Of a stretch of 64,000 nt of DNA, positions 23,635-48,347 are shown piece after piece (positions within the stretch are counted from its first letter, which is position 1; every line of letters starts with the position of its first letter). The notes under the pieces are model-generated. The model worked only from the letters and a program-made list of their open reading frames with translations. It was not told where the DNA came from and made no database searches. The DNA is taken from NCBI GenBank assembly GCA_017480095.1, contig JAFVBG010000003.1, forward strand, positions 186,001 to 250,000. The letters run 5' to 3'. A program made the translations under genes and the position numbers. This DNA comes from Candidatus Saccharimonadota bacterium. Its GTDB lineage: Bacteria; Patescibacteriota; Saccharimonadia; Saccharimonadales; Saccharimonadaceae.

Positions 23635-23791
23635 TAAAACCCAAAACATATCAAAGATGGTGGATTCACTATGTTAAAATTACAACGCTAGTCCAGCGTT
23701 GTAATTTTAACGTGAAATCCAGCCTAGAAAAAATTCCTAGCTACTAGCTAGGAATTTTTCCGCCTATTCTTTGATATGCTTTTGGGTTTTA
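23635..23791. repeat. 157-bp three-branched palindrome at the rpoC end; includes terminator
   Basis: Outer arms 23635-23657 and 23768-23791 are near-perfect inverted repeats, and the right arm includes the rpoC stop codon. Inside are two hairpins: a perfect 17-bp stem (23673-23689 with 23695-23711, loop of five), extended by GGATTCAC/GTGAAATCC, and a perfect 14-bp stem (23729-23742 with 23746-23759, loop ACT). The second ends in a T run on the minus strand and should terminate rpoBC transcription. With the rplC leader and promoter it fills the 314-base gap. Confidence 0.8.
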
Positions 23792-32552: not shown

Positions 32553-32924
32553 ATGCTAGCAATTCGTATGCAGCGTAATGGCCGGTCGCATTACCCAACG
32601 TACCGGATAGTCGTCCAAGAAGCGCAGCGTCATCCCCTCTCTGGGCGTGTCGTAGCTGAGGTCGGCAACTACAACCCAGCCACCAAGGAAACAACCTTGG
32701 ATAAAGAAAAACTTGAAACTTACCTCAAGAACGGCGCGCAGCCATCGACTCGTGTAATCCGCATCTTGAAGGCAAACAAGATTGCTCTGCCAAAATGGGT
32801 GAAAGAGCCACTCGCTAAACACACCAAGGCCAAGCACGCCGACAAGCTCCGCAAGAACCAGCCAAAAGAAGAGGCCCCTGCGGAAGAAGCCCCAGCCGAA
32901 GCAACTGCTCCAGCTGAAGCTTAA
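32553..32924 (+). CDS. rpsP: 30S ribosomal protein S16 (bS16)
   Basis: Early 30S assembly protein. Residues 1-80 are standard (MLAIRMQRNGRSHYPTYRIV, VAEVGNYNPATKE, STRVIRILKANKIALPKWVKE). At 123 residues it is longer than the usual 80-90, with an Ala/Glu/Pro-rich tail. It is monocistronic with its own promoter and terminator; the usual partners rimM, trmD and rplS are not beside it. Confidence 0.96.
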   Translation: MLAIRMQRNGRSHYPTYRIVVQEAQRHPLSGRVVAEVGNYNPATKETTLDKEKLETYLKNGAQPSTRVIRILKANKIALPKWVKEPLAKHTKAKHADKLRKNQPKEEAPAEEAPAEATAPAEA

Positions 32925-32937
32925 TCAGCATCAAATA

Positions 32938-32964
32938 TCCCCCTCGTAGCTGAGGGGGATTTTT
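32938..32964 (+). terminator. terminator of rpsP
   Basis: CCCCCTC-GTAGCT-GAGGGGG followed by ATTTTT. On the other strand it may also slow transcripts leaving rnc, which ends just beyond. Confidence 0.85.
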
Positions 32965-32968
32965 AGTA

Positions 32969-33736
32969 TTACACAGATTTAATCTTTTTGAAAACTTTTG
33001 GCTTGTAGAGGCCCTCATCTTTGAGTCTCCGCACGGCGACTTGTGCAGCGCGAATAGTGGCGTCTTGCTTAGAATGCCCAGAGCCGATGCCATAGACTAT
33101 ACCGTTGACTATCACCCGCATAGTGAAACTCCGGTCATGGTCTGGACCGCTCATGGTTACTAGCTGATAGATTGGGCTCTCGGTGTAGAGTCGCTGGCTA
33201 ATCTCCTGGAGGAGAGATTTTGGATCGCGCCAAGTTTCATTCTCTAGAATCTCTGGCAGCTTCACGATAATATGTTTATTGATAAATTGCAAGGCGGTGT
33301 TATAGCCCTGATCGAGATAGATTGCCCCCACCACGGCTTCAAAGCAGTCCGCATGAAACTTAGGGTGAGCATGGTCAACCGTCCGAGAGCCTTCGCCGTG
33401 CCCTAAACGCGTAAGCTTAAGGTAGCCTAATTTTTCGCTAGCATCACCAATCGACTCCGTATTAACCAGCGCCGAACGCAGGCCGGTCATAATCCCCTCC
33501 GGCAAGCTGTAGTTGCGAAAGAGGTAGTCCGAAGTCACCACCTCCAAGATGGCATCGCCTAGGAACTCCAAGCGCTCGTTGTGAGAACCTAAAATTTTAT
33601 GCTCATGTGCATAGCTTTTATGCGTTAAAGCCGTGATGAATAGTGAAATATCATTAAACTCAAAGCCAAAGTGTTCTCTAGCAAAGTCCTGATACTCTTG
33701 CTGTTTTGCCTTCGGCATACCAACGTTATAATACAT
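32969..33736 (-). CDS. rnc: ribonuclease III
   Basis: Double-strand RNA endonuclease that processes rRNA precursors. The 255-residue protein has the signature HNERLEFLGDAILEVVTSDY, the second metal-site region with FHADCFEAVVGAIYLDQGY, and a C-terminal double-stranded RNA-binding domain (about 175-245). AAGGAG from the end of the NUDIX gene supports the first ATG. It is the last gene of the rpmF-nusB-NUDIX-rnc operon. Confidence 0.97.
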   Translation of the reverse strand: MYYNVGMPKAKQQEYQDFAREHFGFEFNDISLFITALTHKSYAHEHKILGSHNERLEFLGDAILEVVTSDYLFRNYSLPEGIMTGLRSALVNTESIGDASEKLGYLKLTRLGHGEGSRTVDHAHPKFHADCFEAVVGAIYLDQGYNTALQFINKHIIVKLPEILENETWRDPKSLLQEISQRLYTESPIYQLVTMSGPDHDRSFTMRVIVNGIVYGIGSGHSKQDATIRAAQVAVRRLKDEGLYKPKVFKKIKSV

Positions 33737-39019: not shown

Positions 39020-39565
39020 ATGAAATTGACCGTAGTACTCCATAATATCCGTTCGACCTACAATGTCGGAGCGATTTTGCGCACGGCGGAAGGATTTGGC
39101 GTCGAAAAGGTGATTCTGTCTGGCTATACCCCTTGGTATGATAAGCCCGGTTTGCTTCCCCACCTTGCCGAGAAACTTGAGCATCAGGTTACGAAGACCG
39201 CGGTCGGGGCAGACAAGCTCGTCAAGACGGAATGGGTGGAAGATTTACCCGCTTGGCTAGACAATCTGCCAGAGAATGTGCAGAAGCTTGGATTAGAGAA
39301 TAATCTGGAAGACGACCGTTTGAAGACGCTCGGTGATTTCACCTTTGATGACAAGTTGAGCGAGCCGAAGTCCCTGGCCTATGAAGAAGAGAAGTCAATC
39401 TATAATGACGAAAAAGTTTTGGTGCTGGGCGAGGAAGTCCATGGTATTCCGCCAGAAGTGCTGGCGAAGCTGGATGTTTTGCTCGAAATCCCGATGCGCG
39501 GGCGGAAGGAATCTTTTAATGTTTCCGTCGCCGCAGGAATTGCGATTTACGAACTGGCGCGTTAG
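39020..39565 (+). CDS. SPOUT-family RNA methyltransferase (TrmH/SpoU)
   Basis: Ribose 2'-O-methyltransferase for tRNA or rRNA. The three SPOUT motifs are visible: LHNIRSTYNVGAILRTAEGF (motif 1), VLVLGEEVHGIPPEVL (motif 2) and IPMRGRKESFNVSVAAGIAI (motif 3). The 181-residue size matches the minimal knot domain without an N-terminal extension. It has its own leaderless promoter. The stop overlaps that of dus on the other strand by three bases. Specific substrate unknown. Confidence 0.93.
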   Translation: MKLTVVLHNIRSTYNVGAILRTAEGFGVEKVILSGYTPWYDKPGLLPHLAEKLEHQVTKTAVGADKLVKTEWVEDLPAWLDNLPENVQKLGLENNLEDDRLKTLGDFTFDDKLSEPKSLAYEEEKSIYNDEKVLVLGEEVHGIPPEVLAKLDVLLEIPMRGRKESFNVSVAAGIAIYELAR

Positions 39566-40647
39566 CCCATCTCAAAGGGAGTGCTCTGAATCACCTCGCG
39601 GAGCTCGTCTGTGGTGTTGCATTCCATCAATTTTTGGCGCAGATCGGAAGAATTGGGTGTCGAGTTAAAATAGACCTTGTAAAAATGTTTCAGCGGTTCA
39701 AACGGATACTTCTGCCCTTTAGCTTCCAGCTCGGCGCGGCGAGTATCAAATAAATCTAAATGATACAAGAATAAGTCTGCACAATTAGTTTTCGGACACG
39801 CGTCGGCTCGGCCCGTGCGCCACGGGCGAGCCGCACCACTACTCGCGTTGCCGCGCTCCGTACTGTCCGAACAACTAATTGCACCGAACTTATTCCTAAA
39901 ACATCCGATATCTTTGAAAACGCCCCTTCCAATCATGAAACCGTCAATCTCTGGATGCTTTTTATATAGCTCTAGCGCATGGGCGCGATTCTCAATATCA
40001 CCATTAATCACCAGCTTAGTCTGTGGCGCAATCTCGTCTCGTAGCTTGATAATCTCTGGAATCAACTCAAAGTGTGCGCCGACCTTGCTCATTTCCTTCT
40101 TTGTGCGGAGATGTACGGTTAGAGTGGCAAGATTCTCTCGCAAAAGCGTCGGCAACCACTCGCGGAACTCATCTATGCGCGAATACCCCAGTCTAGTTTT
40201 GACCGAGACCGGCAGATTAGTGGCAGATTTGGCCTGGCGGATACATTCCACGGCGAGTTCTGGCGTCCGAATCATGCCAGAGCCGCCACCAGTTTTACAG
40301 ACATTTTTATCTGGACAGCCCATATTGAGATCTAGACCGTCAAAACCAAGCTCTTCAAGCTTGCTGGCGAGCAAGGCAAACTGTTCCGGATTCTTCCCCC
40401 AGATTTGCGCCACAATTGGCGTGCCGTTGTGGACGTGCTTGCCTTCGTTTGGGTTTATTTCTAGCCGCTCCAGCGCATTCTCTCGTCCACGTTCCGAAGC
40501 AAAGCTCGAAACATTGGTAAACTCAGTATAAAAGACATCTGGGGCGCCCGCTCTTTCGACCACGGTGCGAAAAACCTTGTCTGTCACCCCCTCCATCGGA
40601 GCGAGGACAAGAAATGGCTTCGGCAGCTCTTCCCAGAAGTTAGTCAT
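39562..40647 (-). CDS. dus: tRNA-dihydrouridine synthase with in-frame palindromic insertion
   Basis: FMN enzyme that reduces uridines in the tRNA D-loop. The barrel shows LAPMEGVTDKVFR, the catalytic cysteine in NMGCPDKNVCKTGGGSGM, the SVKTRLGY motif, TVHLRT, NGDIENR and MIGRGVFKD. Directly after this the family continues into the C-terminal helices; here about 45 residues (SDSTERGNASSGAARP and surrounding) intervene before LFDTRRAELEAKG. The extra DNA is a complex palindrome (39769-39895). It follows the helicase gene by 22 bases. All catalytic residues are intact, so the enzyme may still work. Confidence 0.93.
   Translation of the reverse strand: MTNFWEELPKPFLVLAPMEGVTDKVFRTVVERAGAPDVFYTEFTNVSSFASERGRENALERLEINPNEGKHVHNGTPIVAQIWGKNPEQFALLASKLEELGFDGLDLNMGCPDKNVCKTGGGSGMIRTPELAVECIRQAKSATNLPVSVKTRLGYSRIDEFREWLPTLLRENLATLTVHLRTKKEMSKVGAHFELIPEIIKLRDEIAPQTKLVINGDIENRAHALELYKKHPEIDGFMIGRGVFKDIGCFRNKFGAISCSDSTERGNASSGAARPWRTGRADACPKTNCADLFLYHLDLFDTRRAELEAKGQKYPFEPLKHFYKVYFNSTPNSSDLRQKLMECNTTDELREVIQSTPFEMG
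39769..39895 (-). repeat. 127-bp palindromic element in frame inside dus
   Basis: The outer arms (39769-39798 and 39864-39895) pair over about 30 bases with small bulges, both containing CAATTAGTT and TTCGGACA blocks. An inner hairpin pairs CGGCTCGGCCCGTG (39804-39817) with CACGGGCGAGCCG (39821-39833), one bulge. Between them, 39840-39862 matches 48002-48024 in the rlmD-like gene at 20 of 23 positions (TACTCGC, TTGCC, GCTCCGTA blocks). The encoded peptide has the motif T-E-R-G-N-A-S-S. Confidence 0.8.
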
Positions 40648-47005: not shown

Positions 47006-47078
47006 GGGTGGGGAGGTTTTCCAGATACGAAGTCCTCAAGACCTACTCGAAAATGAGGAGGTTTTCCAGATGCGGAGT
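47006..47078. repeat. short direct repeat at the end of the rlmD-like gene
   Basis: The sequence GAGGTTTTCCAGAT followed by a similar CGNAGT block occurs twice about 48 bases apart, once inside the last codons of the rlmD-like gene and once just beyond its stop. It looks like a small tandem duplication of the gene's 3' end. Confidence 0.5.
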
Positions 47079-48347
47079 GCGTGGGAAGAAGTTGAATGGA
47101 ACACAGCTAGTAATTCGGTATTTTTCGAGTAATTTCTTCGCGTCTCGCGCCTGCGTAGCAGGATTGCAAGAGAGATAGATGATTTTTGGCGGATGGACTT
47201 CGAGGAGTTTGTCGATTAATTTATTGTCCAAGCCGGCGCGTGGCGGGTCAACGATGACGGCTTGGTCTGACTCGATATATTCTAGAGCTTCTTCCGATGC
47301 GGAGAGCACTGGCTTGGCGCTCGTCCCCTCGCAGTTGTGTTGAAGTTCCTGATAGGCGGAGCCGTTGAGCTCGACTAGGGTCAAATCACGGTCTCGCGCC
47401 ACCGATAGGCCAATCGTACCGACCCCAGCGTAGAGGTCAAGCACTTTTTGCTGGTCACCCAAATGCCCAGCGATTGCTTTCAGTGCGAGCTCATAGACCG
47501 GTAGGTTAATCTGGAAAAAGCCGTTTGGCGAATAAGAGTATTCATGCCCAAGTAGCGTGTCTTTTAGCGGCTCAAAAACGGGGTGAGATTTGCCATTTTC
47601 TAGTAGGCCACCAGAAACGACCCCCTCTTGATTACAACGCAAAAGCAAAGTCTGGTATTTGCGCGCCTCTTCACCCCTAGCGTTTAAGTCGGCAAAGATT
47701 TCTTGGCACTTCGCCCAGATTTCTGGACGTTCGAGACTAGATTGGGTGATGGGAAATTTGATGTGGGTGCCACGGTGACGACAGGCTGGGTAAATCAGCC
47801 CATCCTCGTTGTTGTAATATAGGGCGTATTCCATTTTGTTGCGGTAACCAAGTTCTATACCGTCAGTTTGAATATTTTTTTCTTGGAGCGTGTTGTTTTT
47901 CTCTGTCTCATGAGACAGTCGCTCCTCACTTGAAGATGAAAATGCAAGCATTTTCGCCTTCTCGTCTCGTCGCACTGTCGCCACAGAGAAAAACGCACTC
48001 GTACTCGCCTTGCCAGGCTCCGTATCTCCTGCGAAAAAATTATTCAAACTGATGCCAAACTGCCCATATTGCTCTTTTAGCAGCTCTAGCTTCTGTTCTA
48101 GCTCGTAGCCGTAATCCATGATTTGCCAGGGCGAGGTGGAGAGATAGCAATCATCCTTCGGAGCGATGCGATGCGGGGATGGATTTTCAATCTTTGTCGC
48201 AATCGCCTCAAAATAGCTCGACTTGTTCTTCGTAATCTGATAATCTGCGACGGTTTCGCCAGGTAATGCATTCCAGAAGAACCCCTTCTTGCCGTCGCTA
48301 TTCGTGCCGATTCCTTGCCCTCCTGGGACTAAACCGTCAATTCGCAC
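47043..48347 (-). CDS. TrmA/RlmD-family RNA (uracil-5-)-methyltransferase with in-frame insertion
   Basis: SAM-dependent enzyme methylating uracil C5 in rRNA or tRNA. The 434 residues contain a short TRAM-like N-terminus, the SAM site LDLYAGVGTIGLSVARD, IVDPPRAGLD and the nucleophile in YLSCNPATQARD. The iron-sulfur cysteines of RlmD are not complete (only one in DDCYLSTSPWQ). Between ISLNNFF and GYRNKMEYAL about 55 residues interrupt a normally short linker; their DNA is a large palindrome related to that in dus. It starts at a GTG overlapping the stop of the ABC permease. Target unknown. Confidence 0.88.
   Translation of the reverse strand: MRIDGLVPGGQGIGTNSDGKKGFFWNALPGETVADYQITKNKSSYFEAIATKIENPSPHRIAPKDDCYLSTSPWQIMDYGYELEQKLELLKEQYGQFGISLNNFFAGDTEPGKASTSAFFSVATVRRDEKAKMLAFSSSSEERLSHETEKNNTLQEKNIQTDGIELGYRNKMEYALYYNNEDGLIYPACRHRGTHIKFPITQSSLERPEIWAKCQEIFADLNARGEEARKYQTLLLRCNQEGVVSGGLLENGKSHPVFEPLKDTLLGHEYSYSPNGFFQINLPVYELALKAIAGHLGDQQKVLDLYAGVGTIGLSVARDRDLTLVELNGSAYQELQHNCEGTSAKPVLSASEEALEYIESDQAVIVDPPRAGLDNKLIDKLLEVHPPKIIYLSCNPATQARDAKKLLEKYRITSCVPFNFFPRTPHLENLLIFE
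47864..48051 (-). repeat. 188-bp palindromic element in frame inside the rlmD-like gene
   Basis: Outer arms 47864-47882 and 48033-48051 are inverted repeats with 18 of 19 positions matching. Inside them, GTTTTTCTCTGT (47895-47906) is inverted exactly at 47983-47994. Central hairpins include CTGTCTCATGAGACAG and GAAAATGC-AA-GCATTTTC. Positions 48002-48024 match the core of the dus element (20 of 23). The encoded peptide has T-E-P-G-K-A-S-T, against T-E-R-G-N-A-S-S in Dus. Confidence 0.8.

Follow-up and report, generated by a model that had tools for sequence, protein, structure and literature searches.

The question raised by this locus is how a tiny Saccharibacteria parasite with a streamlined genome comes to carry a hairpin of about 120 bases inside the gene of an RNA-modifying enzyme. 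Hitherto, nearly all palindromic elements known within coding sequence came from Rickettsia and Wolbachia. The first-pass annotation of the 64,000-nucleotide stretch of DNA analysed here (the window) had reported a palindrome interrupting a tRNA-dihydrouridine synthase (Dus). Our analysis indicates that the segment is probably a mobile hairpin element of small size that belongs to one of several families of this kind in the genus, has settled in permissive protein loops and is translated through. The features on which the following description relies are listed below, in window coordinates.

39562..40647, minus strand: Dus gene, host of the element (361 aa, open throughout)
39767..39898, minus strand: whole palindromic element with its arms (about 44 codons in frame, 29 net extra residues)
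39864..39898, minus strand: 5' arm, the first along the element strand (from the fold)
39767..39798, minus strand: 3' arm, pairing with 39864-39898 (from the fold)
39793..39869, minus strand: core conserved across the family (covariance model R1, 80.8 bits, E 1.1e-17)
39837..39862, minus strand: core hairpin A (GGAGCGCGGCAACGCGAG), with a 4-bp stem (from the fold; stem covaries across the family)
39800..39836, minus strand: core hairpin B, with its loop near GTGGCG (from the fold; stem covaries across the family)
47863..48052, minus strand: second copy of the family, lying in frame within an RNA methyltransferase-like ORF (47043-48347)

The identity of the host gene was established by a match to Pfam PF01207 (E 2.9e-43). 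In comparison with 29 Dus proteins from the same genus, the spacing between the motifs CF and HLDL was 16 residues in the relatives and 45 in the window protein, which amounts to a net in-frame gain of 29 aa (87 nt) rather than the insertion of about 45 residues first described. The segment was missing from all 29 orthologues, which confirmed the interruption; a segment found in all relatives with no palindrome in its DNA would have been an ordinary domain, whereas this one is absent from the relatives and its palindrome is present in the DNA. The insert does not directly follow MIGRGVFKD, as had been proposed, but starts about 14 residues further on, after CFRNKFGA, the preceding IGCFRNKFGA aligning with the ordinary NPYCFTNHIGT of relatives. 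It follows the barrel and precedes the C-terminal helical domain. The catalytic GCP motif and the remaining invariant Dus columns are all outside it, and the reading frame is kept, both in line with the annotation. An AlphaFold model gave insert residues 254-282 a pLDDT below 50 and most of the enzyme good confidence; the insert is thus modelled as a low-confidence loop, as would be expected of a flexible one. Dus insertions were also seen elsewhere. At another site, located downstream of this one, genes from three other species carry different hairpins in frame (L189 around 2226-2417, L190 minus strand around 2223-2414, and L209 minus strand around 2229-2420, the latter two counted along the reverse strand), and a copy of the same family lies at the extreme C-terminus of Dus in another species (L200:2448-2521, genome G050).

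The Dus-gene (minus) strand of 39760-39910 folded at -75.1 kcal/mol, compared with -48.0 +/- 3.5 kcal/mol for dinucleotide shuffles (z -7.9), and none of 200 shuffles was equally low. In a scan of the 64 kb, this stretch was among the three strongest fold outliers given GC content (z -6.1). The outer arms of 30 bases noted earlier correspond to paired arms of about 32-35 nt, and the 13-bp inner hairpin to 39800-39836, next to which a second inner hairpin was found at 39837-39862. The element is in sense orientation, its own strand being that of the gene.

Ten places in the same genome matched the DNA of the Dus element at E up to 0.01. A covariance model of the family, built on 28 copies, retrieved 15 copies in the own genome, i.e., a dispersed family. 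Copies were present in 55 of the 60 sampled genomes of the genus, mostly metagenome assemblies, at about 10-20 per genome; since the copies are related, such counts are not independent events. No family match was obtained in several near-complete genomes of the genus, e.g., G046, G048 and G021. Within the order, all matches with E up to 1e-5 came from a single family of genomes (18 of 198 genomes, in three genera). A scan of 84,980 species genomes with a core pattern matched at least 119 stretches, and the matches listed were from Saccharibacteria, mostly of ruminant guts and including Candidatus Nanosyncoccus alces, and from a few other genomes; among these listed matches, those confirmed by the model were Saccharibacteria throughout. 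Pattern hits in Enterobacter, Mesorhizobium, Streptomyces, Methylobacterium and Trueperella had no covariance-model match and were attributed to chance. The identity of a known structured RNA family was rejected, the element matching no Rfam 15 family at E up to 1. Cores were weakly more alike within than between genomes (0.735 versus 0.686, with 124 of 5000 permutations as high).

The second copy in the window (core 47957-48031, 45.8 bits; 20-nt outer arms, 95% complementary) carries in its hairpin B an extra apical hairpin that it has in common with L004 (G000:C5, around 163131). The same core was found in unrelated genes, in intergenic and antisense positions and in several reading frames. 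An ordinary expansion of a protein loop, its DNA palindromic by chance or codon bias, would agree with an insert that is in frame and in a loop, but it is contradicted by these dispersed copies as well as by the z of -7.9 of the fold, and we give it practically no credence.

The core, of about 76 nt, forms a strongly covarying three-way-junction structure. Among 101 distinct copies, pairing was kept in 97.6% of cells and double-sided changes occurred in 15 of 21 pairs; the covariation score was 0.51, compared with 0.14 after shuffling and at most 0.09 for slid partners. The outer arms differ at almost every site, yet they are complementary inside each copy, with a median pairing score of 31, compared with 12 for left flanks combined with the right flanks of other copies, and with 92% of copies exceeding the 99th percentile of this null; complementarity fades about 20 bp outward. 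In genome G004, an identical 78-nt core occurs in three copies, each with a different arm pair. The arms carry a weak base preference, and conserved terminal inverted repeats common to the copies were not found. In left arms, between -32 and -11 from CGGAG, weak preferences recur at a spacing of about ten bases (purines around -31, A around -21, T around -11), such as protein contacts with the duplex might leave.

From 157 copies, 86 lie inside genes in frame and free of stops (39 sense, 47 antisense), 2 are in frame with a stop and 9 stand between flanks in other frames, the remainder being at gene ends, intergenic or undetermined; of the frames that cross an element with its arms, only about one in two is stop-free on average. 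Dus alone was checked against Pfam; the other gene names, TrmD, MnmA, LepA and methyltransferase, rest on visual inspection of sequence motifs. The TrmD gene was recovered from 158 of 174 genomes of the genus, and in 54 of these 158 it came as two or more pieces, in most cases with the break at one particular loop. The 64 TrmD loci that could be read are all in frame and without stops: 32 are empty, 16 have the family core (12 antisense, 4 sense) and 16 have other hairpins, either related or quite different nested ones. At least five further hairpin families occupy this same TrmD loop in frame (L281-L317), examples being L281/L288/L301/L315, L290/L302, L286/L292/L300, L285/L311 and L310, and their cores recur at other loci. 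The net insertion ranges from 26-29 aa in TrmD, where it is about the core only and the native loop is lost, to 39 aa in MnmA, i.e., the core with both arms.

These observations bear on whether the segment reaches the protein. Hairpins support ribosome bypassing in gene 60 of phage T4, and this precedent, together with a stable hairpin flanked by complementarity, would suit a segment that is spliced out of the mRNA or bypassed during translation, leaving a protein without it. Removal or skipping would, however, need neither a kept frame nor avoidance of stops, so that the frame data count against it: at most 11 in-gene copies lose the frame or contain a stop, compared with 86 that do neither; every one of the 64 TrmD genes is in frame; and both orientations occur. 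We therefore consider this explanation very improbable. Judging from the open frames, copies are apparently read through by the ribosome, the Dus insert included.

Species with filled and with empty TrmD sites are mixed on a poorly resolved tree. In three close genomes with flanks 88-97% identical, several copies were in common, and four sites are occupied by the element in one genome and by some other hairpin in a second. The TrmD loci L305 and L306, with flanks about 98% identical, have cores of opposite orientation, different stems B and different arms, and at orthologous sites the arms change together (e.g., L041, L134, L116). A fresh insertion beside a nearly identical empty allele was not found, the unshared sites of the trio holding other hairpins, and movement of the element is therefore inferred rather than observed. 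No target duplication was visible at the sites compared, which offered no clean pair of empty and filled alleles.

The refilling of the same sites by different families, in both orientations, would also be seen if the element entered the centre of palindromes that existed beforehand, the arms belonging to the site and only the cores coming and going. The host sequence outside the element at L353:11716 is itself partly palindromic, and identical cores sit in different arms within one genome (L015, L026, L033), both in line with such slots. On the other hand, the families that occupy one and the same site have different inner arms there, tight sites such as that in MnmA gain 39 aa, the core and both arms, and the empty alleles of the MnmA site have no matching palindrome. 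On balance we regard pre-existing slots as rather unlikely, and favor a mobile hairpin element.

Arm mismatches, read on the element strand, comprised 92 G.T, 29 A.C and 55 others in 2585 pairs, and per copy G.T was in excess in 63 and A.C in 17 (p 2e-7), these and the following counts disregarding the kinship of copies. In an independent set of 32 new copies, G.T again exceeded A.C (29 versus 7 in total; 20 to 2 per copy). The same held for in-gene copies whether sense (24 to 8) or antisense (33 to 5), and the bias thus goes with the strand of the element rather than with the mRNA, irrespective of host-gene direction. A left/right asymmetry of the G.T mismatches (68 versus 24) was absent in the new copies (14 versus 15) and was dropped. 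As a G.T change keeps the pair on the element strand and breaks that of the complement, the bias points to a constraint on a single-strand structure, formed by the element strand as RNA or ssDNA, also at sites whose mRNA carries the opposite strand.

Together with the strong structural covariation, this bias would also fit a functional RNA or ssDNA element selected for the host, in a regulatory or chromosomal role, and not a selfish mobile element; vertical inheritance of arms at some sites (e.g., L015/L128, L099/L125) speaks for the same. Such a role is hard to reconcile with the lack of any match in the near-complete genomes named above, with sites and numbers that vary between close species and with the similar numbers of both orientations in genes, and we judge it improbable.

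For the mobile hairpin element, we propose that it moves, or once moved, to new sites, that the ribosome would read through it, and that insertions out of frame or in rigid regions would be purged, leaving those in loops. The complementarity of the arms may be kept by two processes, which our data do not separate. The first is polymerase template switching between the arms, which would make them alike and could invert the sequence between them; switching between inverted-repeat arms is known to homogenize arms and invert the spacer (PMC8604942). It would account for matched arms and flips without a special enzyme, but it leaves the G.T bias unexplained, for which selection or a one-strand mechanism is needed. 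The second would be selection on the hairpin of the element strand, as RNA or ssDNA, which would tolerate G.T/U pairs and not A.C. A snap-back model, with the native 5' arm on the element strand and the 3' arm as its copy, had looked right in single TrmD cases (L294, L314), but among 40 copies with empty orthologues the 5' arm was the more native in 21 (p 0.89), and the model was rejected.

Known machinery was also considered. A Y1 transposase (Y1_Tnp) was found in 2 of 60 genomes of the genus and not in G000; an origin of the REP/RAYT type was rejected, since the enzyme is missing from the other 58. Reverse transcriptase does not track the copies, having no match in the copy-rich G004, G042 and G052 and being present in the copy-free G019 and G021, and for this lack of correlation a reverse-transcriptase partner, and with it a derivative of a retroelement or group II intron, was rejected as well. 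We tentatively suggest, as a possibility short of even chances, that the spreading unit is a structured single strand (an RNA or ssDNA three-way junction of about 80 nt) and not a double-stranded transposon, that new complementary arms form at each site, that the enzyme involved is still to be found, and that the element, sharing sites with at least five hairpin families, stands for an undescribed class of translated mobile elements.

The palindromic elements known as RPE and those of Wolbachia are hairpins of 100-150 bp with many copies and several families, inserted in frame in solvent-exposed regions, with orthologues filled at the same locus (PMC3767692, PMC2229807). The Saccharibacteria element is likewise a dispersed palindromic repeat of about 100-150 bp, with several families and copies in ORFs without loss of frame and at the same locus in orthologues. 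In contrast to RPE, its arms are site-specific even around identical cores and are not part of the shared repeat, its core forms a three-way junction with conservation on one strand, and its sites are also used by several hairpin families unrelated to it. RPE palindromes are reported to lose repeat identity over time (PMC6649704), whereas the arms described here co-vary. The element belongs to a different phylum, and no sequence in common was seen; among the listed matches to the core pattern, those confirmed by the model were Saccharibacteria. As the arms are not included in a shared repeat, and lineage and apparently also sequence differ, we set it apart from RPE despite similar workings. 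The likeness to Rickettsia drawn in the first-pass annotation accordingly stands for palindromic, in-gene and in-frame insertion, but not for identity, given the site-specific arms, the multi-branched one-strand core and the several families. In line with that annotation, no account of such elements in Saccharibacteria or the Candidate Phyla Radiation came to light in the open literature, of which coverage was incomplete.

Other systems resemble the element in part. In Nematomorpha mitochondria, coding genes carry inverted repeats whose arms evolve in concert, and template switching has been proposed (PMC6649704). The arms in Saccharibacteria also change together inside coding genes; however, both arms encode conserved protein in Nematomorpha and no mobile core is described there, whereas here the arms lie in loops and the core is dispersed. 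Short hairpins in many copies with strand-specific structure recall REP/RAYT, from which the element differs in its mostly intragenic copies and in the rarity of Y1_Tnp given above. Bacterial MITEs (Correia/NEMIS, ERIC, RUP) measure about 100-150 bp, would give long-hairpin transcripts and are in some cases fused in frame to genes (PMC2229807). The element is similar in size, in the long hairpins that its transcripts would make and in its in-frame gene fusions, but unlike MITEs it has no conserved terminal inverted repeats. No related transposase was found, and target duplication was not seen at the sites compared.

The occurrence of several families at 10-20 copies per genome in another phylum indicates that reduced genomes can repeatedly acquire structured DNA and carry it in frame. 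It also offers a natural test of which loops in proteins tolerate 30-40 extra residues, with dozens of cases in TrmD alone, and through the strand-specific pairing bias the question of whether such palindromes propagate and survive in single-stranded form becomes testable. Protein annotation in Saccharibacteria, essential enzymes included, should allow for these inserts.

Two further structures were seen in the window. An intergenic nested palindrome at 23636-23789 has 22-nt arms around two long hairpins and forms a three-way junction of different sequence; it is perhaps a further hairpin family or a compound terminator. The stretch 32831-32970, which equals the Dus element in strength as a fold outlier (-73 kcal/mol, limited to one strand), adjoins a terminator-like hairpin and looks like a low-complexity coding tail.
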